Part shown: positions 7,959 to 23,324 of the stretch, in pieces
Layout of the letters: the number at the start of each line of letters is the position of its first letter
Position numbering within the stretch: the first letter of the stretch is position 1
Virus record (IMG/VR): IMGVR_UViG_3300030020_000069
Coordinates: 1 to 31,820 of that record
DNA: 31,820 bases
Reading direction: 5' to 3' (one strand)
From: a virus
Notes under the pieces: model-generated
Database searches by the model: none
Told to the model about the DNA's origin: nothing
What the model saw: the letters and a program-made list of their open reading frames with translations, nothing else
Position numbers and translations under genes: made by a program

Positions 7959-8209
7959 CAGATCAAGCAATTAACGACATCAACACCCTTATGCAACGCA
8001 TTGAGGAAATCAACGCCAAGCCGGCGACCACCCTAACCGACTCGGACATCGACGACATCATCATCTACCACCGCCGCAACCGAGCCCGCAAGGCAGCTGG
8101 TGAAAAGTTCGAACGCCCCGCTACCCCCAAGCTCGATATCACGTCGTTGCTGAACCTGCCAGCACCCAAGATCCCAACAGGATTGCCGGTGGTCACGAGG
8201 AGGATTTGA
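7955..8209 (+). CDS. Small phage protein with YHRRNRARKAAG motif
   Basis: Encodes 84 residues. The central stretch DIDDIIIYHRRNRARKAAG resembles a short motif seen in many small uncharacterised phage proteins next to recombination genes (from memory). The C-terminus LPVVTRRI matches the end of the gene at 4537-4875, and its Arg codons AGG AGG supply the ribosome site of the next gene. The stop overlaps the next ATG (TGATG). Function unknown; the position suggests a helper of the recombination block. Confidence 0.7.
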   Translation: MTDQAINDINTLMQRIEEINAKPATTLTDSDIDDIIIYHRRNRARKAAGEKFERPATPKLDITSLLNLPAPKIPTGLPVVTRRI

Positions 8210-9246
8210 TGCCCGACCAATCCGTCAACGAATCCACCCTCACCACAGGCACCACCTCACCATTCCTTCCGGGGACCAAGGCGCAGTACGCCTGGGACTC
8301 CACGTCGCTAGGCTATATCAAGACCTGCCCAAGGCTTTACCAATATGTCATGCTCGACGGCTGGGCACCACGCGGCGAATCCGTCCACCTACGCTTCGGA
8401 ATGGAATATCATGCAGCGCTTGAGCAATTCGATCGCCTTATGGCGGATGAAAACCATGACCGTGAAGCCGCAATTCGAGTGGTTGTCCGCGGACTTATGG
8501 AGCGTGTCGCAGATTGGACCCCAGACCCGGCGACAAAGGCTGGACGTTACAAGAATCGTGAAACTCTGGTGGCTCTGGTGGTCGATTATCTGGATCATTT
8601 CGATCCCGACCCGGCCGAGACCTACATCAAATCCGATGGAACCCCCGCGGTAGAGTTGAGTTTTAGGTTTGAGCTTGATTGGGGGCCAAGGGCGGGTGAA
8701 TGCAAAGATGGCCTGGAGCCGGGTGACGTTGGCTACCCCGGACCTTCATATGAGTCCCAACCCTACCTTCTCTGTGGCCATCTCGACCGAGTCGTTAGCT
8801 TCAACGACCAACTTCTGGTAATGGACCGCAAGACCACTACCACCACCCTCAGCGGATATTACTTCAACCAATACGAACCCAACAACCAAATGACTCTGTA
8901 CACCCTCGCCGGTAAGATCATCATGGGCGCCCCTATCCGCGGAGTGATCATCGACGCTGCCCAAATCCTCTTAGAAAAACCCAACGCTTTCGCCCGTGGC
9001 TTCACCTATCGCACCGAGGATCAACTTGAAGAATGGCTTGCCGACCTTCGGGTACTATTGGAAAACGCCGAACGTTATGCGGAGAATGACTATTGGCCGA
9101 TGAATGATAGCTCATGCGATAAGTTTGGGGGTTGTCGCTATCGTGATATATGTTCAAAATCCCCATCAGTTCGAGAAAGATTCCTAGCCGCTGACTTCGA
9201 AAAACTGGAGCCTGATCAACGATGGAACCCATTGAAGAGCCGCTAA
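8209..9246 (+). CDS. PD-(D/E)XK nuclease with probable Fe-S cluster (Cas4/RecB-like)
   Basis: Encodes 345 residues from ATG 8209, behind AGGAGGA. The nuclease core is visible as GHLDRVV (Asp193), VMDRKTT (Asp206, Lys208) and the QMTLY motif (Gln227, Tyr231), the usual order of the RecB/Cas4-type PD-(D/E)XK family. Cys40 near the N-terminus together with Cys303, Cys309 and Cys315 (CDKFGGCRYRDIC) gives the four-Cys pattern that binds a 4Fe-4S cluster in AddB- and Cas4-type nucleases. The likely role is DNA end resection in phage recombination, working with the ATPase and ssDNA-binding proteins that follow. The in-frame TTG at 8206 is a less likely start. Confidence 0.88.
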   Translation: MPDQSVNESTLTTGTTSPFLPGTKAQYAWDSTSLGYIKTCPRLYQYVMLDGWAPRGESVHLRFGMEYHAALEQFDRLMADENHDREAAIRVVVRGLMERVADWTPDPATKAGRYKNRETLVALVVDYLDHFDPDPAETYIKSDGTPAVELSFRFELDWGPRAGECKDGLEPGDVGYPGPSYESQPYLLCGHLDRVVSFNDQLLVMDRKTTTTTLSGYYFNQYEPNNQMTLYTLAGKIIMGAPIRGVIIDAAQILLEKPNAFARGFTYRTEDQLEEWLADLRVLLENAERYAENDYWPMNDSSCDKFGGCRYRDICSKSPSVRERFLAADFEKLEPDQRWNPLKSR

Positions 9247-9434
9247 TCCCTTCCTGGCTCCGCTGGCCGCCCAACTGCTGCGAAACCTGCACAGGCTGGC
9301 GACAACACGCTGAGTTCGAGGGTCAATGTGAACAATCTGAATCCGGCAACTCCAGCAACATCACTGATTCCCGCTTCCGATGCCAAGACTTCAAAAGGAG
9401 ACCAGATGCCCAGCCTCAGCAACCATCACTCTAA
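9222..9434 (+). CDS. Small Cys-rich protein, possible zinc binder
   Basis: Encodes 70 residues. The centre holds Cys in the pattern CCETC...W, then a Cys after EGQ and a last Cys before QDFKR. Short phage proteins with C-x2-C...GxC...C-x-F spacing are common and probably bind one zinc ion. It overlaps the nuclease gene by 25 nt and the ATPase gene by 29 nt, so it is nested in the recombination operon. The ribosome site is weak (GGAG 11 nt upstream). Its first residues, MEPIEEP, echo the PIEEP of the direct repeat at 7389, probably by chance. Confidence 0.55.
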   Translation: MEPIEEPLIPSWLRWPPNCCETCTGWRQHAEFEGQCEQSESGNSSNITDSRFRCQDFKRRPDAQPQQPSL

Positions 9435-10281
9435 CGCCCTCGTCAAACTCCTGCTTCTCGGTGATGCAAAGTCCGGTAAGACATCATCTTTGGTATCCCT
9501 AGTCAAAGCCGGCTACAAACTCCGCATCCTCGACATGGACAACCTTCTCGATCCACTCAAATATCAAATCATGTCCCACTGCCCAGACAAGATCGAGAAC
9601 GTCGAGTACCACAGTCTTCGCGACGATTACAAAGTCACCCCCGCTGGCACCGTGGTCGACGGCAAGCCCAAATGCTGGATCGATTCGCTCAAGATGCTCA
9701 ACAACTGGACCTACACCGACTCAATCACCGGCGAAGTCATCGAGCTTGGCTCACCAGCAACTTGGCCCGACGACACCATTCTTGTCATTGACTCCCTCAG
9801 CCGCTGGTGCGACGCTGCTATGGAGTTCCATCGCAGCATGACCCCAGTTGGCAGAGGCGGTCAAGCCGACGGCCGAGCAATCTATGGCAACGCCCAAGAC
9901 GATGTCGAGAAGCAACTGGCCGGTCTCACCTCACCTAAATTTCGTTGCAACGTCATCGTCATCTGCCATGGCGTATACATGACCCTTGACGATGGCACAA
10001 CCAAAATCTTCCCTCAAGGCATCGGTCAGAAGCTATCCCCAAAGATCCCCACCTACTTCCCCAACTACATCCGCTACATCCAAAAGGCCGACAAGCGAAC
10101 CATCCAACTAACCTCAAACCAAATGATCTCCCTTGCCAACGGCCGCCCGGATGCCATGCCGGCCGAACTCCCCACCGACACCGGCCTCGCCGAATTCTTC
10201 GCGATATTAAAGGGACAACCCGCGAAGTCTGAGGCAACACCAGTTGCCAAACCCAAGTCCCTGACATTGAGACGAACATGA
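9406..10281 (+). CDS. Sak4-like RecA-fold ATPase
   Basis: Encodes 291 residues from ATG 9406, preceded by AGGAG at 5 nt. The frame is open upstream to a GTG at 9328 without a ribosome site. Walker A is GDAKSGKTS (Gly19 to Ser27) and Walker B is TILVIDSLS with Asp129. The architecture fits the AAA_24/Sak4 type of phage ATPase, which loads or anneals single-stranded DNA in recombination. The neighbouring nuclease and ssDNA-binding candidate support that role. The last residues (LTLRRT) are basic, and the stop overlaps the next start (ATGA). The family call is good; the exact activity is inferred. Confidence 0.8.
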   Translation: MPSLSNHHSNALVKLLLLGDAKSGKTSSLVSLVKAGYKLRILDMDNLLDPLKYQIMSHCPDKIENVEYHSLRDDYKVTPAGTVVDGKPKCWIDSLKMLNNWTYTDSITGEVIELGSPATWPDDTILVIDSLSRWCDAAMEFHRSMTPVGRGGQADGRAIYGNAQDDVEKQLAGLTSPKFRCNVIVICHGVYMTLDDGTTKIFPQGIGQKLSPKIPTYFPNYIRYIQKADKRTIQLTSNQMISLANGRPDAMPAELPTDTGLAEFFAILKGQPAKSEATPVAKPKSLTLRRT

Positions 10282-11771: not shown

Positions 11772-11781
11772 GGTGCAGCAA

Positions 11782-12912
11782 GTGACCCCCATCGTCCTTC
11801 TCGCCGAAGCCTACGGCGAAGCCGAAGCCCGCCACAACGCCCCACTGATCGGGGCGTCAGGCATTGAACTCCTACGGATGCTGGGGGAGGCCGGGGTCAT
11901 TGATCTATCCCCCGTCGACCGTGACCTAATCTCCCTCTACTACCGCACCAACGACAATCGCCGCATCATTGAGATCTGGTCCCATCACCCCGAAGTCCAC
12001 CGCACCAACGTCTTCAACATCCACCCTCCCGCCAATGACCTTGGGCATTTCCTTGGGGCGAAGTCTGATGCACTCCCCGGTTATCCAATGCTCAAGGTCA
12101 ATCCCCAAAAGGGTCGGCCGAAGCCTCAGGGGCCTTGGGTCCGAAAGGAGTTTGCCACAGAACTGGAGCGCCTCGCCGATGAGCTGTGCAATCACAATCC
12201 TAATATCGTGGTTTGTCTTGGCAACTGTAGTCTCTGGGCCCTTACTGGTAAGACTGGTGTCTCCAAGCTTCGGGGTACGACTCTGTTGTCTACTCATACA
12301 GTGGATGGTTTCAAGCTACTTCCTACTTACCATCCCGCTGCAATATTGCGGAACTGGGACAACCGCCCCGTAGTCATTGCCGACCTGATGAAAGCCCATC
12401 GCGAATCGCAGTTCCCTGAGATAAGGAGACCCCATCGTGAAATCTGGATCGAGCCGGCCATCGAGGACATTGATCGATTCATCCACGAACATATCTTGAG
12501 ATGCGGAATCTTATCTGTTGATATCGAAACAAGTGGAACACGCATTACGTGTATTGGCTTCGCCCCAACCTCAGGTCTTGCAATCGTTATTCCATTCGAT
12601 GACAACCGAACAAAGAACGGTTCTTTTTGGCCAACTGTACGGGATGAGGCTAGATGCTGGGAGCTTGTTCGATCAGTTCTCGAAGATGCTTCTACCCCCA
12701 AACTCTTCCAAAACGGCTGCTACGACATCGCCTTCCTCTGGCGGTCAATGAGGATCAAGGTTCTTGGTGCAGCCGAGGACACCATGCTCTGCCACCATGC
12801 GATTCAGCCTGAGTCGTTGAAGGGTCTAGGCTTCCTCGGCAGTATCTATAGTGACGAGGCCACCTGGAAAGGAATGGCAAAGCATGCGAAAACCATTAAG
12901 CGTGATGACTAA
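11782..12912 (+). CDS. Uracil-DNA glycosylase plus 3'-5' exonuclease half of a split DNA polymerase
   Basis: Encodes 376 residues from GTG 11782, which has AGGTG just upstream; GTG 11773 is the alternative. Residues 1 to about 215 form a family IV/V-like uracil-DNA glycosylase: LLAEAYGEAE and LIGASG near the start, and the closing YHPAAILRN motif. Residues from about 235 form the proofreading exonuclease: Exo I is VDIETSG (Asp247, Glu249) and Exo II is QNGCYDIAF (Asn311, Asp315). The protein stops before Exo III, which is found in the next gene. In SPO1-like phages the UDG, exonuclease and polymerase parts form one chain, so this gene and the next look like one enzyme cut in two. The stop and next start share a base (TAATG). 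Confidence 0.85.
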   Translation: MTPIVLLAEAYGEAEARHNAPLIGASGIELLRMLGEAGVIDLSPVDRDLISLYYRTNDNRRIIEIWSHHPEVHRTNVFNIHPPANDLGHFLGAKSDALPGYPMLKVNPQKGRPKPQGPWVRKEFATELERLADELCNHNPNIVVCLGNCSLWALTGKTGVSKLRGTTLLSTHTVDGFKLLPTYHPAAILRNWDNRPVVIADLMKAHRESQFPEIRRPHREIWIEPAIEDIDRFIHEHILRCGILSVDIETSGTRITCIGFAPTSGLAIVIPFDDNRTKNGSFWPTVRDEARCWELVRSVLEDASTPKLFQNGCYDIAFLWRSMRIKVLGAAEDTMLCHHAIQPESLKGLGFLGSIYSDEATWKGMAKHAKTIKRDD

Positions 12913-14417
12913 TGAGAATCATTAAAACCCACGAAACCGACCTGTCCTCCCTCCCCCCTTGGGACGCCGACATGGTCTACAACGGCCTCGATTGCTGTGT
13001 AACCCAGGACGTATTCAATGCCATCCACCCGCAACTCGACGAAGACACCGCGAGGACATATGAGTTCTCGAAAGCCCTCCAAGGTCCCGTATTGGAAATG
13101 CGGATACGTGGCGTCTTGGTCGACCAAGCGCGACGAATGGAAGTTGTTGATGAACTCTTCGAGCAAGCGGACGTTCTAGAAAGGCAGCTCAATCGCATTG
13201 TCCTTGACGGTGTCGGCCTTCCCACCTTCAACTGGCGATCCCCTGTCGATCTCCAGCGACTCCTCTACCACGAACTCGATATCAAACCCATCATCCGCGG
13301 AGGTCGACCCACTGTTGACCGTGGCGCAAGGGAGAAGATCGAATCCTACCCGATCGCCACGCAGATCATAAAGCATATCAACGCACTCACGGAACTTGGA
13401 GATAAACTCAGTGTTCTACGAACAGCGATCGATCCTGATGGACGAATTAGAACAAGTTATAACATTGCAGGTACGTCGACTGGCCGATTTAGCTCATCAC
13501 TATCCGAATTCGGCACAGGAGGAAATCTCCAAAATATTGAAGAATCTCTCCGTAGCGTATTCATTGCTGATCAAGGTTATAAATTCGCCAAATATGACGC
13601 CAAGTCCGGTGAGTCCTTCTGCGTCGGGGCGATCGAGTGGAATCGATTCGGGGATGGACGCTATCTTGAAGCCTGTGAGTCTGGAGACCCTCACACAGCG
13701 GTTGCAAGAATTATATGGCCAAACCTTGGGTGGACCGGCGACCTTCGACGAGACAAGGCTATTGCTGAAACACCTTATTTCCGCCACCATAGCCATCGCT
13801 TCATGTGTAAAAAGCTTGGCCACGGATCAAACTACGGAGGCAAGCCCACAACTCTTGCCGAGCAATCCCACCTCCCCATCAACGTCGTCGCAGAGTTCCA
13901 GCCCAAGTATTTCAGCGCCTTTCCAGCTCATCAACTTTGGCAAGCAGGGGTTGAGGATCAACTTCGTCGAGCCGGATTCCTTATTAGCCTTACTGGAAGA
14001 AAACGGTGGTTCTTTGGTAGAAGAAGTGACTCAAGTACCCTCAGGGAAGCGATTGCGTATGACCCTCAGTGTTCGTTAGCCGACATCGTCAACCTAGCCC
14101 TCCTCAAACTTTGGCGCCAGGGTCACACCATTGTTATGCACGACCACGACGCCTTGACGTTCATGTACCCCGAGAAACGTGAAGATGAGATCATTCCCAA
14201 ACTCATGGAAGCCCTTGTGGTGCCCATACCGCTGGCAAATGGCCGTACACTACGGATACCATATGATTGCGAGGTGGGATGGAATAAAGGACACTTTGAT
14301 TCTAAGTCTAACCCCGATGGACTACGAGCTTATTCGGGGACTGACACCCGCAAACGACAACCGATCCGTTCGATCTTGGACACCATAGTGACCAAACACA
14401 TTGCGAAAGTAGGCTAA
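12912..14417 (+). CDS. DNA polymerase family A, polymerase half
   Basis: Encodes 501 residues. It opens with the missing Exo III element of the proofreading domain (VYNGLDCCVT, Tyr23 and Asp27), then thumb, palm and fingers. Motif A is KYDAKSGE (Asp229, Glu234), motif B is RFMCKKLGHGSNYGG (Arg296, Lys300/301, Tyr308), and motif C is MHDHD (Asp411). The catalytic aspartates are present, but the Glu or similar residue that usually follows HD in motif C is His412. It should replicate phage DNA together with the upstream UDG-exonuclease protein, probably as a complex. It is coupled to genes on both sides by TAATG junctions (12912 and 14417). Confidence 0.9.
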   Translation: MRIIKTHETDLSSLPPWDADMVYNGLDCCVTQDVFNAIHPQLDEDTARTYEFSKALQGPVLEMRIRGVLVDQARRMEVVDELFEQADVLERQLNRIVLDGVGLPTFNWRSPVDLQRLLYHELDIKPIIRGGRPTVDRGAREKIESYPIATQIIKHINALTELGDKLSVLRTAIDPDGRIRTSYNIAGTSTGRFSSSLSEFGTGGNLQNIEESLRSVFIADQGYKFAKYDAKSGESFCVGAIEWNRFGDGRYLEACESGDPHTAVARIIWPNLGWTGDLRRDKAIAETPYFRHHSHRFMCKKLGHGSNYGGKPTTLAEQSHLPINVVAEFQPKYFSAFPAHQLWQAGVEDQLRRAGFLISLTGRKRWFFGRRSDSSTLREAIAYDPQCSLADIVNLALLKLWRQGHTIVMHDHDALTFMYPEKREDEIIPKLMEALVVPIPLANGRTLRIPYDCEVGWNKGHFDSKSNPDGLRAYSGTDTRKRQPIRSILDTIVTKHIAKVG

Positions 14418-15661
14418 TGCCCACTCCAAGCTCAGGGAAACGCCGCTGTGAATCATTCATTGACGTCTTCGTCGACTCCACCGCCAACCTCGGAGCCCCG
14501 AAGATCTTCCGCAAATGGACCGCCATCAGCCTAATCGCCGCAACCCTTGAGCAAAAGGTTTGGCTCCGCACTAGCCGGCCCCTCCACCCAAACATCTACG
14601 TGTTCCTAATCGCAGCTCCGGGTGTAGGCAAAACCCGAACCATCATGGAGGGCAAACGCCTCGCGATGGAACTGGAAGACTTCTACCTCGCCCCAGTTTC
14701 CATGACCTTTGCCAGTCTCGTGGACGCCCTTTGCAAATCCAAGCGCACCATCGTCCGCCAACCCGAGGGCGAACTAGTCTATAACACCATGTGGGTTGCG
14801 GCCGACGAACTCGGTGCATTCATTCACAAATACGAACCGGAGATGATCGATGGACTATCGCACTTCTACGACCCAACTCCCTACCAACAAGTCCGCCGCA
14901 CCAACGACATCGACATTCAAATCAATTCTCCTCAAATCAACATTCTTGCAGGGTCCACTCCGCAAAATCTCATGGGATTTATGCCAGACAAGGCGTGGGG
15001 TCAAGGATTTTCATCACGTGTTATTATGGTCTTTTCAGATGAACGGATCATCGTCGACGACTTTGGGGATTTTGGGCCTAGCCGAACCGCCGATCTGGTG
15101 CATGACCTTAAAATCATCAACGGGCTCTACGGGGAATTCACCGTCACCGAAGAGTATAAGGCGGCTGTAGGGTATTGGCGGGCGCAGGGCGAACCGCCAG
15201 TACCAGGGCATCCGAAGCTAATTCACTACACCACTCGACGCCGGGTCCATATCTACAAACTATCTATGATCGCCTCGATCACCAAGTCATCGGCTATGAT
15301 CTTGACTGAGGCTGACTTCTTGCAGGCTCTGGAATGGCTAGTGCAGGCTGAGACTTTCATGGAAGACATATTCAAAGCCGGGACCACTAATGCCGACGCG
15401 GCTGCAATGGATGAGATTCAGCATTTTGTGGTTATTAATGACCTTGGTACGGGAGTCTCTGAGCAGCGAATCGTGCACTTCGCCAGGGAACGTGTGCCAC
15501 TCACTAGCATCCTACGGATCATCGAGATCATGGAAGGCTCAGGACAAATCTTCGTCCGCCGACGGGATCGGAAGACCCAAGCTCGATACTACTCAGCCTC
15601 GCCCCTAGCGGCACCCATTGATGCACCCGAGGTGAAGCCGACGTTGAAGATCATGCAATAA
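14417..15661 (+). CDS. DUF3987-like ATPase, putative replication helicase
   Basis: Encodes 414 residues. Walker A is AAPGVGKT (residues 66-73), and VAADELG with Asp130/Glu131 is the likely Walker B. The regions SGSTPQNLMGFM and GFSSRVIMVFS are typical sensor and arginine-finger segments of DUF3987-type phage ATPases, which are often linked to primase-helicases. The C-terminal 90 residues look like a winged helix (LTSILRIIEIMEGSGQIFVR). No primase domain is present. Given its place directly after the polymerase (TAATG), a replicative helicase or loader is the best guess. It is the last plus-strand gene, ending 4 nt before the terminator hairpin. Confidence 0.78.
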   Translation: MPTPSSGKRRCESFIDVFVDSTANLGAPKIFRKWTAISLIAATLEQKVWLRTSRPLHPNIYVFLIAAPGVGKTRTIMEGKRLAMELEDFYLAPVSMTFASLVDALCKSKRTIVRQPEGELVYNTMWVAADELGAFIHKYEPEMIDGLSHFYDPTPYQQVRRTNDIDIQINSPQINILAGSTPQNLMGFMPDKAWGQGFSSRVIMVFSDERIIVDDFGDFGPSRTADLVHDLKIINGLYGEFTVTEEYKAAVGYWRAQGEPPVPGHPKLIHYTTRRRVHIYKLSMIASITKSSAMILTEADFLQALEWLVQAETFMEDIFKAGTTNADAAAMDEIQHFVVINDLGTGVSEQRIVHFARERVPLTSILRIIEIMEGSGQIFVRRRDRKTQARYYSASPLAAPIDAPEVKPTLKIMQ

Positions 15662-17555: not shown

Positions 17556-20500
17556 TCACCTATTCGGCAGGGAACGTCCTGCCATGTAATCCCTAAGCGT
17601 CGCGGAATGGCCCTTGAGGGTGCCATATCGACCAAGAACCAACCATCCCCAAGGCCCACGAGGGCGTTCGATGCCTTGGGAAACTCCATAGGCAGCCGAT
17701 CCAACCTTACCGATTTGATCTGGAACCCCAGTCAACGCCCCCGCGAAGTTCGATGCATCGCGGATGATCTTCTCAGAGTACTGAGTATTAAAGGCTTGTT
17801 TCTTATCAAGATCCCTCCAGACATCGAACAGCCGTTTACCTTCGGTCGAGAACAACCCAACCTCAGGTTCCTTACCTTGTAGCAAGGCGTTGGTGAACTC
17901 CCGCACAAACGGCATCGTAGCGCCTTCGGTGTACAGTATCGACTTCGCCGCCCGCTTGCCCCAGCTTTCATCTGGGCTGGACTGTTGCGGCGAGACGTAT
18001 TCCTCTACAATCGTGGGCCAGATTGCATAAGCAAACACCCCCGTTGCTACCGTTGCGCCCATCGCCATTGCGGATTTGTGATTGCCTTCTTTAGCTAAAT
18101 CAAGGGCTTCACCTGCTCGCCACACCGTTTCAAGTTGTCGATTGAATATATCGTTGAAGAAGTTGTACATTGAGGTAAACCCAGGGTCGATCTGCTGGGT
18201 GATTAATGGGCGATTGGTAATAGCCGTCGATCCATGTGCTCGACGCACTGAGTAGTCAGCCTCATACACAGCATCGCCGTGGGATTTACCTTCACCACGC
18301 GCCTGATCATAGCGGGCCAACCATGTCGGTACCGCAGACATCAAATCTGACAATGCCACTGGCTTCGAGCTAAGCTCCATAATGGTCTGTCGTAGTTGAC
18401 CATACTTTGATCCGGCCTGCAACTCACCGGTTGCCCCGTACAGATTCTCATGCCAGTTTCTACCGCGGCGTTGGAGTTCTAGGGAATTGTTCATGGCGAA
18501 TCGGTAGTTGCTATCTCCAGTTTCCTCATTAATGGTGAACATACTGCGCACGGCCTTGAGCAAAGGCATAGCACCGACTTCTTTAATACTAAGCCCAAGG
18601 GCGGTGGGGCCATGCTTTAATACTGTCCCGGGGTTAAGGCCAACCAATGCGGTGATCAGATTCTGTCGCATGAACTCGCTAACTGAACCCAGCACTCCCG
18701 CATCATGCATCGCGGCGTTTGAGGCATTGGCCACGCCACGAAGGTAAGGGATCAACTGCTCAACATATTCCTTACCGTAATGAGTCTGGATCGCCGCGCG
18801 AATCTCTGGATCCTTAAACACCTTCACCGCATTCAACACCGCAGGGCGAACCGCTGTGTTGTGGATCATCTGGGCGAGGCGGTTAGGCATTTGGTTAAGG
18901 GTTAAAGCTGTGGGTGCCGAGTATCCCGTTCGATCATTCTCATACCCGGCGCCCGGCATCGCCCGATCAAATCCTTCGAAGCCATCGCCCATCAGCCCAG
19001 CGTTGCCCATTAACTTGCGGCTGGTACCCTCAAATAGATCGTGGTAGATCATCGGGTAGTAGCCACCGCGATAGGTGCCGTGGGGTGTCTGCACCGGCAC
19101 CGCCTGGATTCGCTGTGCAGGCACTCCAGAGATCGACCGATACATCGTGTCCGATCGGTCCTTGGCTTCTTCGAATATATCCCAGATCGCCTGGACTCGA
19201 TCCCAATCGTGTTCGGTAGCGTTATTCCAGACCCAGCCCATAATAGCATCCGGCTCCAACCCCCAGCCCTTAGCCATCTTGGCGAGGTTGGATTTATTAC
19301 CGACGTTAAGCATGATCGAGTGGAGAGCCTCGCGGTTCATGGTCAGCAGATGGTTACCATATCGCTCAGGTGATTTAAACAAATCATTCGGCACATTACG
19401 ATTCATATCGTCAATGTCCTTGAGCGCCCCAAGCTTCTTTCCAAATTCCTTCTTCCAAGCATCGGACTGATTCACACCATCGACTAGATCACGAAGAACG
19501 TATTGCTTCCACGGCCCATTAACATCAAATCGATCCCATCGATTCAGTATGTTCTCCATCGCCAGGGTCCTAGCCAACATCGCTCGCGGAACCTTGGACA
19601 CAATCGACGACCCACCTTCGAGATTAGCCTCACTAGACTTGAACCTCTCGATGGATTGAATCATCTCCCGTTTCTTTTCCTCGCGATCCGCTTCGTCACC
19701 GGCCTTGATCAGCTTTCGTTCCTCGCGCCCATTATGGGCAATGGTCTCGATCGAATCGCGAACCGAACGAAACTCGGGGACTGAGAGTTCTTTATAGTTC
19801 TTCGTCCACTTCGGATCGTACAACTGATCCCAAACCGGCATAGCCTGCAACCATTGGGTTTTGTTCTGCACGAAGTCTTGTAGGGTCTTACTGGTTGATG
19901 CATCGATCTCACGTTGCAGATCATCACCGCTTCGCCGAACCTTCTTACCAATCTGGGCCATAATCTGGTGAACCCAGTTAGTATACTCCGGATCCATCGA
20001 GGGCTGAACTTGCTTCGCCAATCGCTTTGTGGTCTTATCGAACTTAGCGACTTCCTTCTCAACCGCCCGACCCTCAGCAGCTACCATAGCCCCCAGGGTC
20101 TGCCGCTGTAGTGCTTGGGTCGCGGTAGCGAAGTCACCGCTGACCAGTGCCTTCTCGGCGATCTTTGCCGATTTACCCATGTCCTGCATTAGCTTATAGG
20201 TATTAATACCATACGCCCGCATAGAGTTGATAACATTCTTAGCGGCCGACTTCATCACTTCTTTATCGACGATAGTGACCCCGGCCTTCATGGCAGTTGC
20301 CATTAGCTGTTCATGGAGCAGATTGATATTTGTCTCAGACAGGGCGGTGTCTTTAGCCTCGTCCATGATGTTGTCTTCAAGTCTACCGTACCGCATCTCC
20401 ATTCGCCGATCAGTCTCGGTTCCCACTAACTGATGCATGAAGTCCATCGACTGCATCCGGCCGCCCTCAGGAGTGCGCTTCATGGACTCGAGGGCGCCAA

Positions 20501-23324
20501 GACGTTGGATCATTTCATCGCCGGATCCATAACCAAACATTCCAGCGACCTGATCAACAGGCAGGCCATTCTTGGAGTAGTAATGATCTGGAAGCGCGGC
20601 CTTTTGTTCTGGGGTTAGGTCTTCCTCACGAAGCGTATAGCGCTGCTGAAGCTTCTTGCCGAACAACTCGCCCGACCCGAGGAACTGATCCGCTGCCACA
20701 TCCGGTCGCTGACGAATCTCCGCTCCAACTTCCTTTGCCATCTCGACCCGGTTTGCTTTCCATTCCTTGGTCTGGCGATGGGTTTCTTCCTTAGCGGCCC
20801 GTTTGGTCGCAGTCTCGAGATCTTCTTGATAGCGCTTGTCTAGGCCCGCCATTAGCTTATCAAAGGTCTTGCGATCGAGGCCGACCGATTGGGCTTGGAG
20901 ATTGTCGCGCCCTTCAAGAGACTCCCTAATATCAAACGCCCCCGCCGACCTAGGCTCTCCAGCCGGACGCTGGCCAACCTCACCGGAGTGTACCTTTGCA
21001 AATACATCTTCCCAGGTTGCCTCTGGGCCAAACCCAAGCTTGGCCTTAATCAAATCAAACAAATCCATAATCTTCTGGAACACTGCCCCGACACCGGTCT
21101 TCGGCCGAACATCCGGAGCTTGAGCCGCCCATTCTTGGAATGCCTTGGCGATGGATTCCTCAGTACGCCCGTCCTCAGTCACATGGGCGTAGCGATCGTT
21201 AATACCATAGCGATCCGCCCAACCTTCGGATTTGGCAGCATCGGCAAGAGTCGACCATTCTTTATCTGTGAAGAAATTATATCCGCGCAGAAAATGCACC
21301 GCCTCGTGGCGGCCAGTTGCTGTAACATCCGGCCTCAACAGATCCAACAAAATAGTAGGCGGTGCACCCCTGTTCGGCACATATGCTCCACCGGCCCAGC
21401 TGCCAGCCTTTTCACTATACAGACCGGTTGTAGGCTCAATCCCAACCTTCTTGCCGGTAATTCGCTGGAGCTCATCCATCGCAGCTTCGCCGAACTTGAC
21501 CTGTTCAGGGGTCCATTCGACTGAGGCGGCATCCTTGGCTAATAGTGAAGTGTTACCGTACCGATGCCAGCCGTTTGCTAGAATGTCTCGGCCCCGATTG
21601 TATTCTTCTAGCGACGGATCATCGACACTCAGCTTAACCTTCGGCAATGGCATCGGACCAAAGTCATTCGCACCTTCTCGTGCGCCAGACACTCTATGCC
21701 CAGTGATGTAGTCATAATCAGGATACAGCGCCTTGATCTGCCGCTTAAGGTCCATCATCAACGCTGGGCCAAACGAATTCGCCCACAGTCCACCCACGCC
21801 ATTGATCATGTTGACATACAGCGTCCGGTCCGCTCCCGGTGCAATCTCAATATCTCCGACATGCTTACCGTTCTCGTCCAGCATGTTCAAGGTTTCAAGC
21901 TTGCCGCCGAACTGCTCGGTGAACTGATTGTCCTCGGTGACCCCCTTTATTAGACTTAACTTCCGATCGCCGAGGCTAAACATTGGCTCAAGCCCCGATG
22001 ATCCCCTCACCGCGGCCAGAGGCGCATCCACCATGGCTTTGGGCTGGCTTTCCGCTGACTCGCCTGCTTCCCGTGCTGTGATACCACCCGGCCAGACTCG
22101 AATGTCATCATGAAGGCCCTTTGCTACTTGCGGATCGACCCGAGTTAACCAATCTTTGAGCGGAATGCTAATGTCGCTACCAATATCTCTAGCGGCCATC
22201 AGCTGCGATTCAATGTTCGGCGCCCACCCCAACAATCCATCATCAGGCATAGGAATCTTATCACCATATAATTTTAGCGCCGCATCGGAATGCACTCCCA
22301 GTGATATATCACCCAATGAACCAATAGTCTTAAACATCTCTGGACTACGTCCATGAGTAGCTGAAGCCTGTGCATTCTCAAGGTCAGCCTCAATTCTATC
22401 TACCACTGCCGCATTGACCTCGGCCTTGGCCCGATCAATCAGCGGATGCACTCCATTTGGTGGTTCAAGACCATTATCAGTCCATGGCTTAGCGGCATTA
22501 TAAGCTTCTTGAAACTGTATAAATGCTTCATGCTTAGCGGGATCAAGCAATGGATTAACAGGTTTAGCCCCAGCCTCTGGCGCATGCAGCGGAATATCTC
22601 CCCGCATCATAGCCCATTGGGTCATGGCTTCGGCTTCACGGCCCAGTTGCTCACCGCCGATCGCTGTACCGGCTTGCTTAGCAGCGCCAGTCGCAGCACC
22701 AGCCACAGCGCCCATACCAGCCGACGCCGCTCGTTCCAGCGCCTCCAGCACCAACCACCCAGCCGATGACGTGGCCCAAGCAAGTCGTTGGGTCTCGGGA
22801 TTGAAAGACTTTGAGGCAGCTTCACCAGCTTCCTGCCCTAGTGGAGCATCGCCCCAACCAGATTTAATTCCTTCCCACATTCCCTCGCTGGTACCGGCGA
22901 ATGGCGCACTAAGTGTGTCGCTTAACTCTTCCATCCAGTTTTTTGTTACAGCCAATGAACGAGTATACTTATCTAGGTTCCCCCAGTCGTCATTGGACAC
23001 TGACGCTGCCATCGGATGGGATTGCAGATAGGTTACTAAATCTGGATTGTTCAACACCAATTGCTGGGCAGCGAATTTCTTAATCTGATCCTTCTGCTGG
23101 TCAAGGTTGCTTAAGGTCCAAGGCGCTGGAGCACCTGTGATACTAGACAGATCAGTTGCCTCAGCGGCATCATCGGGATTCGCATCCAGTCCCCGATTAA
23201 TTTGATTCGCAGTCTCGCTGCGAAAACTCGCCAAGCCCCTTGCAACGTCATCCGACCCAACATAATACGGATCAATCGTTGGATCAAAGTCGGCCCCAGG
23301 ATCCATCGGAGTTAGCTTGTTCAC
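17556..23324 (-). CDS. Giant ejection/internal virion protein (gp16 position) with metallopeptidase motif
   Basis: Encodes 1922 residues, starting at a GTG that overlaps the previous stop (GTGA). It occupies the place of T7 gp16, the inner-core protein that enters the cell with the DNA, but is much longer. Visible parts: a Gly/Ala-rich hydrophobic stretch near residues 190-225; a GNAT-like region around 470-560 (ending TGHRVSGARE); an HExxH zinc site HEAVH at 673-677 with Glu722/Glu723 as possible third ligand; long coiled-coil regions from about 820; and a hydrophobic segment near 1770. This patchwork fits the large polyvalent proteins (LPD-type) of phages. No lytic transglycosylase signature was found. 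Roles in ejection and in the host cytoplasm are inferred. Confidence 0.8.
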   Translation of the reverse strand: MNKLTPMDPGADFDPTIDPYYVGSDDVARGLASFRSETANQINRGLDANPDDAAEATDLSSITGAPAPWTLSNLDQQKDQIKKFAAQQLVLNNPDLVTYLQSHPMAASVSNDDWGNLDKYTRSLAVTKNWMEELSDTLSAPFAGTSEGMWEGIKSGWGDAPLGQEAGEAASKSFNPETQRLAWATSSAGWLVLEALERAASAGMGAVAGAATGAAKQAGTAIGGEQLGREAEAMTQWAMMRGDIPLHAPEAGAKPVNPLLDPAKHEAFIQFQEAYNAAKPWTDNGLEPPNGVHPLIDRAKAEVNAAVVDRIEADLENAQASATHGRSPEMFKTIGSLGDISLGVHSDAALKLYGDKIPMPDDGLLGWAPNIESQLMAARDIGSDISIPLKDWLTRVDPQVAKGLHDDIRVWPGGITAREAGESAESQPKAMVDAPLAAVRGSSGLEPMFSLGDRKLSLIKGVTEDNQFTEQFGGKLETLNMLDENGKHVGDIEIAPGADRTLYVNMINGVGGLWANSFGPALMMDLKRQIKALYPDYDYITGHRVSGAREGANDFGPMPLPKVKLSVDDPSLEEYNRGRDILANGWHRYGNTSLLAKDAASVEWTPEQVKFGEAAMDELQRITGKKVGIEPTTGLYSEKAGSWAGGAYVPNRGAPPTILLDLLRPDVTATGRHEAVHFLRGYNFFTDKEWSTLADAAKSEGWADRYGINDRYAHVTEDGRTEESIAKAFQEWAAQAPDVRPKTGVGAVFQKIMDLFDLIKAKLGFGPEATWEDVFAKVHSGEVGQRPAGEPRSAGAFDIRESLEGRDNLQAQSVGLDRKTFDKLMAGLDKRYQEDLETATKRAAKEETHRQTKEWKANRVEMAKEVGAEIRQRPDVAADQFLGSGELFGKKLQQRYTLREEDLTPEQKAALPDHYYSKNGLPVDQVAGMFGYGSGDEMIQRLGALESMKRTPEGGRMQSMDFMHQLVGTETDRRMEMRYGRLEDNIMDEAKDTALSETNINLLHEQLMATAMKAGVTIVDKEVMKSAAKNVINSMRAYGINTYKLMQDMGKSAKIAEKALVSGDFATATQALQRQTLGAMVAAEGRAVEKEVAKFDKTTKRLAKQVQPSMDPEYTNWVHQIMAQIGKKVRRSGDDLQREIDASTSKTLQDFVQNKTQWLQAMPVWDQLYDPKWTKNYKELSVPEFRSVRDSIETIAHNGREERKLIKAGDEADREEKKREMIQSIERFKSSEANLEGGSSIVSKVPRAMLARTLAMENILNRWDRFDVNGPWKQYVLRDLVDGVNQSDAWKKEFGKKLGALKDIDDMNRNVPNDLFKSPERYGNHLLTMNREALHSIMLNVGNKSNLAKMAKGWGLEPDAIMGWVWNNATEHDWDRVQAIWDIFEEAKDRSDTMYRSISGVPAQRIQAVPVQTPHGTYRGGYYPMIYHDLFEGTSRKLMGNAGLMGDGFEGFDRAMPGAGYENDRTGYSAPTALTLNQMPNRLAQMIHNTAVRPAVLNAVKVFKDPEIRAAIQTHYGKEYVEQLIPYLRGVANASNAAMHDAGVLGSVSEFMRQNLITALVGLNPGTVLKHGPTALGLSIKEVGAMPLLKAVRSMFTINEETGDSNYRFAMNNSLELQRRGRNWHENLYGATGELQAGSKYGQLRQTIMELSSKPVALSDLMSAVPTWLARYDQARGEGKSHGDAVYEADYSVRRAHGSTAITNRPLITQQIDPGFTSMYNFFNDIFNRQLETVWRAGEALDLAKEGNHKSAMAMGATVATGVFAYAIWPTIVEEYVSPQQSSPDESWGKRAAKSILYTEGATMPFVREFTNALLQGKEPEVGLFSTEGKRLFDVWRDLDKKQAFNTQYSEKIIRDASNFAGALTGVPDQIGKVGSAAYGVSQGIERPRGPWGWLVLGRYGTLKGHSATLRDYMAGRSLPNR

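Follow-up and report, generated by a model that had tools for sequence, protein, structure and literature searches.

A Phage Family-A DNA Polymerase Encoded in Two Genes, with the Break between Exo II and Exo III and a Uracil-DNA Glycosylase Domain on the First

1. Introduction

Can one catalytic site of a phage replication enzyme be divided between two proteins? The question is raised by two overlapping genes in the IMG/VR virus record IMGVR_UViG_3300030020_000069, of which positions 1 to 31,820 were analysed (31,820 nt, hereafter the window). As originally predicted, the first gene carries a uracil-DNA glycosylase (UDG) domain together with Exo I and Exo II of a proofreading exonuclease, and the second carries Exo III and polymerase motifs A, B and C; open reading frames, profiles and motifs agree on this arrangement. 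The features are collected in Table 1.

Table 1. Features of the split polymerase locus (window coordinates; fractions are the numbers of relatives keeping the residue).
Feature	Position	Strand	Basis or remark
Gene 1, UDG-like domain and N-terminal part of the 3'-5' exonuclease domain	11773..12912	+	
UDG domain, family-4/UdgX-like fold, aa 2-216	11776..12420	+	VIA-align and Pfam UDG
Exonuclease domain, gene 1 part, aa 220-371 (Klenow 324-478)	12430..12885	+	
Exo I, D250-I-E252	12520..12528	+	D and E both 53/53
Exo II, N314xxxD318	12712..12726	+	N and D both 53/53
Gene 1 C-terminal tail, TIKRDD	12892..12909	+	new and conserved
TAATG stop/start overlap, the split point	12910..12914	+	one shared base
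Gene 2, Exo III helix and family-A polymerase domain, 501 aa	12912..14417	+	
Gene 2 N-terminus, MRIIKT	12912..12929	+	new and conserved; predicted beta strand
Exo III, Y23xxxD27 (Klenow Y497/D501)	12978..12992	+	Y and D both 62/62
Motif A, D229...E234	13596..13613	+	D229 62/62, E234 61/62
Motif B, R296xxxK300xxxxxxxY308G	13797..13838	+	R296 and K300 both 62/62
Motif C, H412 D413	14145..14150	+	62/62
Third gene, DUF3987 / PHROG 14296, primase-like	14417..15661	+	profile matches

2. Genomic Context

The window encodes a podophage-type tail and internal virion genes within its 31.8 kb. The polymerase gene is joined by a further TAATG to the primase-like gene at 14417-15661, and a primase-like gene likewise lies 3' of the fused polymerases in annotated relatives at about 30% identity. 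Upstream of the split pair, the plus-strand genes at 8206-9246 and 9328-10281 encode a PD-(D/E)XK exonuclease and a Sak4-like AAA protein, possibly a recombination pair. On the minus strand, 17556-23324 encodes what is likely a large polyvalent protein associated with the virion, 1922 aa long, with an LPD22 domain and a match to PHROG 9880. A 227-aa frame that opens from TTG in another frame within the polymerase gene (13396-14079, plus strand) is probably spurious. The search of host genomes returned a truncated contig in an actinomycete MAG as its sole match, so that no host is firmly indicated, and plasmid records gave ordinary distant polA matches only.

3. Domain Content of the Two Genes and the Position of the Break

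The gene 1 product has 379 aa when read from GTG 11773 to the stop at 12910-12912. The start at 11782 that was proposed originally is equally possible, GTG 11782 having a better-placed GAGG. The protein matches Pfam UDG (2.8e-9), PHROG 17 DNA polymerase (1e-25) and, below that profile's cut-off, Pfam DNA_pol_A_exo1 (6.8e-4). Residues 2-216 superpose on 1ui1 with a VIA-align Z of 17.5 and an rmsd of 1.7, and among relatives E12 (50/53), H187 (52/53) and N88 are kept nearly without exception. The score against the NCBIfam family-4 profile is under its cut-off. Judged by its fold and motif residues, the UDG domain is family-4-like, and uracil excision is its predicted function. Residues 220-371 superpose on Klenow (1kfs/1kfd) with a Z of 13.1. 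A Foldseek search with the model of subunit 1 placed the phiLo family-A polymerase 9qhs at the top, and the match was set aside for its poor rmsd of 17 A.

The gene 2 product matches Pfam DNA_pol_A (1.6e-26) and PHROG 17 (4.6e-47), and motifs A, B and C with their catalytic residues identify it, at the level of sequence, as a family-A DNA polymerase. A match to DpoZ, the 2-aminoadenine polymerase, was set aside as lying far below the DpoZ cut-off. The polymerase profile aligns with Klenow from profile position 18, paired with residue 169 of the Klenow chain (492 in Klenow numbering), and this alignment equates D27 with D501.

The one-base TAATG overlap that had been predicted is present. The polymerase frame is closed by a stop upstream of 12906, hence protein 2 cannot start earlier and neither protein reaches the other's motifs. 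The break falls near Klenow residues 478-492, in the loop preceding the Exo III helix, so that the first chain carries three of the exonuclease carboxylates and the second carries the fourth (Klenow D501). Motif placement and the Klenow alignment thus agree with the prediction of a split between Exo II and Exo III. Where fused relatives read WKDEGKEWDxxTGEDQLWxYNCKD, the window has WKGMAKHAKTIKRDD, a stop and MRIIKTHETDLSSLPPWDADMVYNGLD. The DEDDy motifs (Exo I DxE, Exo II D, Exo III YxxxD) are all invariant, yet they stand on two proteins: the single chain that defines a DEDDy exonuclease is interrupted between Exo II and Exo III in the window and in the clade described below. By its motifs, then, the enzyme is a two-chain form and no ordinary DEDDy proofreading exonuclease.

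Both chains end at the break in new sequences that relatives keep: T374 (51/53), I375 (47/53) and D378 (48/53) in the tail of gene 1, and I3 (61/62), I4 (59/62) and T6 (60/62) at the N-terminus of gene 2. This conservation suggests that the new termini have a job, perhaps docking.

4. Conservation of the Split

A search for loci related to the polymerase gave 80 close ones (63-100% identity), and the polymerase profile matched 502 loci, of which the best 80 were retained. Of the clade loci, 94 have 400 nt or more of sequence 5' of the polymerase gene, and in every one of them a separate UDG-exo gene lies upstream on the same strand, in most cases more than 100 bases away; in seven further clade loci without it, the contig ends cut there. 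The same split was therefore found wherever close relatives could be compared. A search for close relatives with one continuous gene found none, fused forms appearing only at about 30% identity. The spacing between the two genes ranges from -4 to +1702 nt; among 89 clade loci, 27 have genes that overlap, by 1 or 4 nt.

These data bear on the alternative that the original prediction had ranked first, a single-base sequencing error, or more broadly a sequencing or assembly error in one continuous gene. A one-base overlap combined with a shift of one frame is what an indel would produce. However, five contigs from other samples, 99-100% identical, share the junction, as do L013/L014 at 88% identity; in other members the genes stand 100-1700 nt apart, and both new termini are conserved. 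We regard an error as having practically no chance of being the explanation. The split is real and conserved: it is far from chance and present in every comparable close relative.

The spacers often hold unrelated small genes (HTH, endonuclease VII-like, LAGLIDADG-like, DUF3310, RNase H-like). Across the clade (e.g., L018, L019, L041, L048, L055, L076, L077 and L086) the split point looks like a landing site for varied small genes, and the spacers of L019, L041 and L077 encode a common small protein family of unknown function ending in VMRSL or IMRSL.

The spacers also weigh against the possibility that programmed frameshifting, an intron or a split intein joins the two frames into one final chain. 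Group I introns are known in phage polymerase genes, and a split intein is known in the family-B polymerase of phage MIJ3. In most relatives, however, stops and other genes occupy the spacer; the short stretch of the window where both frames are open contains no X XXY YYZ heptamer; neither the window nor 12 loci gave an Rfam intron match; and both proteins are steady in length, which leaves no room for intein halves. Joining into one chain is very improbable.

In close pairs, dN/dS is about 0.04-0.25 in the UDG, exonuclease, N-terminal polymerase and polymerase regions, and both genes are under purifying selection. The distances of the two genes correlate (r 0.89), as expected for linked genes. 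Gene fragmentation can be a sign of decay, and the pair might accordingly be the decaying remnant of a polymerase replaced by another one. The low dN/dS in all four regions and the retention of every catalytic residue among relatives differing at up to 60% of positions speak against this reading, to which we give hardly any credence.

5. Origin of the Split

A maximum-likelihood tree was built from 101 joined sequences; its root is uncertain, and its sampling favours sequences near the queries. The 72 split rows form one clade (SH-aLRT 99) without re-fusion, and the fused relatives fall in a separate group; L005, L006 and L007 sit on long branches. Relatives at about 30% identity are mostly single ORFs (29 loci). 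On this phylogeny, the split of the main clade is one ancient event.

Other members of the family are broken as well. L150 is nested among fused rows, with the fused L145 and L147 as sisters, and by its placement represents another break, of separate origin, at this very Exo II/Exo III junction. Its spacer (L150:7043-7333) holds the remnant of an HNH endonuclease (PHROG 3377, 1.3e-12). In L128 and L134 the break lies between the UDG and exonuclease domains, and the gap of the former (L128:1410-1650) contains another HNH endonuclease remnant (Pfam HNH_3, 3.8e-5; PHROG 1872, 5e-11). L006, L125, L129, L130, L131 and L136 are broken just before motif A, with inserts of 45-817 nt, resembling the split of phage MEP401, and in the distant relative L007 (MW202554) the break follows Exo III, with the polymerase in the second gene. 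Independent splits at several points mean that this polymerase family has been broken repeatedly. A stop near the end of the UDG region of L133 (6495-6499), with almost no gap, may be an error or a recent break.

Genes of T4-like phages are known to be split by the insertion of a homing endonuclease (PMC2988022). This pattern and the analogous splits of L150 and L128 suggest a homing-endonuclease origin for the main-clade split too. Endonuclease VII-like and LAGLIDADG-like genes occur in the clade spacers of L048 and L055. At the break in the window, where the genes overlap, there is no endonuclease, and none in the main clade can be traced back to the founding break. A single-chain UDG-exo-pol ancestor was probably broken when a free-standing homing endonuclease inserted; the endonuclease would have been lost afterwards, leaving a site that now appears to tolerate overlaps or various cargo genes.

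6. Predicted Joint Fold and Proposed Proofreading in Trans

Since the frames of the window differ, its read-through cannot be modelled as one chain, and the relative L035 was used instead. In L035, gene 2 continues in the frame of gene 1 beyond the TAG stop, and reading this TAG as a residue gives a joined chain with a two-residue link. The AlphaFold2 model of this read-through has a pLDDT of 91.4 and a pTM of 0.86 and is weak mainly at 341-371. Residues 208-846 superpose on Klenow 324-928 (1kfd) across the break (Z 28.3, rmsd 3.4, 516 residues), in a model that is one tethered chain of a relative rather than the window's two chains, that had fused homologues in its alignment and that has low confidence at the junction. 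The strand predicted for the gene 2 N-terminus is seen at 374-377. Together, the two pieces are predicted to give the full Klenow-like exo-pol fold.

Alternatively, subunit 2 might replicate alone without proofreading and subunit 1 might act separately, in uracil sensing or as a degenerate exonuclease, with no joint site. The polymerase motifs are complete on subunit 2, and subunit 1 modelled alone is predicted to fold (pLDDT 90.7). But Y23 and D27 of Exo III would then be useless on subunit 2, and Exo I and Exo II incomplete on subunit 1, although all are invariant (Table 1), and the co-occurrence of the two genes is obligatory (94/94). Retention of these residues would be surprising in a chain that carried only an incomplete exonuclease; the exonuclease site is thus most likely common to both chains. 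We consider separate roles unlikely. The earlier proposal that the exonuclease site needs the assembly of both proteins finds strong support in the sequences and the model.

We therefore favour, with considerable though not complete confidence, a two-subunit family-A polymerase whose proofreading site would be formed in trans, with translational coupling, assembly of the chains and an endonuclease origin as parts of the same proposal. Translation of subunit 2 would probably be coupled through TAATG to termination of subunit 1. The two chains would assemble at the break, within the loop that precedes the Exo III helix, and restore an exonuclease domain like that of Klenow, to which subunit 1 would contribute three carboxylates and subunit 2 the fourth and the tyrosine, and proofreading would depend on this assembly. 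A speculative extension, which we think rather doubtful, is that proofreading and uracil sensing are separable and possibly regulated: subunit 2 alone would be exonuclease-free and the joining of subunit 1 would switch proofreading on, an analogue of Pol III alpha/epsilon reached by way of a broken active site.

If proofreading in trans is correct, the locus is a natural experiment in which one catalytic site of a replication enzyme has been divided between two proteins, and the division has persisted in a phage clade that is both large and diverse (502 loci match the polymerase profile). The uncoupling of proofreading from synthesis in a family-A polymerase becomes testable, and protein complementation gains a ready-made site at which to divide the enzyme.

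7. Comparison with Known Systems

The fused UDG-exo-pol polymerases of Microcystis phage Mel-JY34, MW202489, vir526 and SPO1-like phages have the same domain order at about 25-31% identity, and a DUF3987/primase-like gene lies 3' of the polymerase in Mel-JY34 and vir526 as in the window. They are, as the original prediction stated for SPO1-type relatives, one polypeptide, whereas the window has two. The cultured podophage Kuura of Caulobacter (OQ067476) falls within the split clade and has the same split at 36-39% identity, with two small genes between the gene 1 homologue Kuura_029 and the polymerase Kuura_026. In the Kuura record, the first half is annotated as hypothetical and only the second as polymerase, a warning for annotation. 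The parts of the Kuura description consulted contain no mention of the split (PMC9959647).

None of the open-access papers searched was found to describe a family-A polymerase that is divided between Exo II and Exo III and has UDG on its first chain. OM43 phages of the MEP401/MEP402 type distribute a family-A polymerase over two ORFs, separated by a small one. The exonuclease and the N-terminal portion of the polymerase are both encoded by the first of these, so that the break is inside the polymerase domain and the exonuclease site stays on one chain (PMC10580990). Split B-family polymerases, mentioned in the original prediction, are indeed known from gene 43 (43A/43B) of the T4-related Aeromonas phages 25 and 44RR; in phage 25 the two products co-purify with polymerase activity, and the split nrdA of phage Aeh1 is active (PMC2988022). 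In both cases an essential phage enzyme was broken by insertion and its chains reassemble into an active form (PMC2988022), as proposed here, but the former is a family-B polymerase and the latter a ribonucleotide reductase, with breaks unrelated to that of the window. Split phage polymerases are thus already known; what seems new is the break between Exo II and Exo III in combination with UDG.

The Klenow fragment of E. coli DNA polymerase I, unlike the window enzyme, is a single chain and has no UDG domain. Bacterial DNA polymerase III carries its whole exonuclease site on epsilon, separate from alpha. A second subunit helps to supply proofreading there, as is proposed for the window enzyme; in the window, however, the site itself is divided and the polymerase is of another family.
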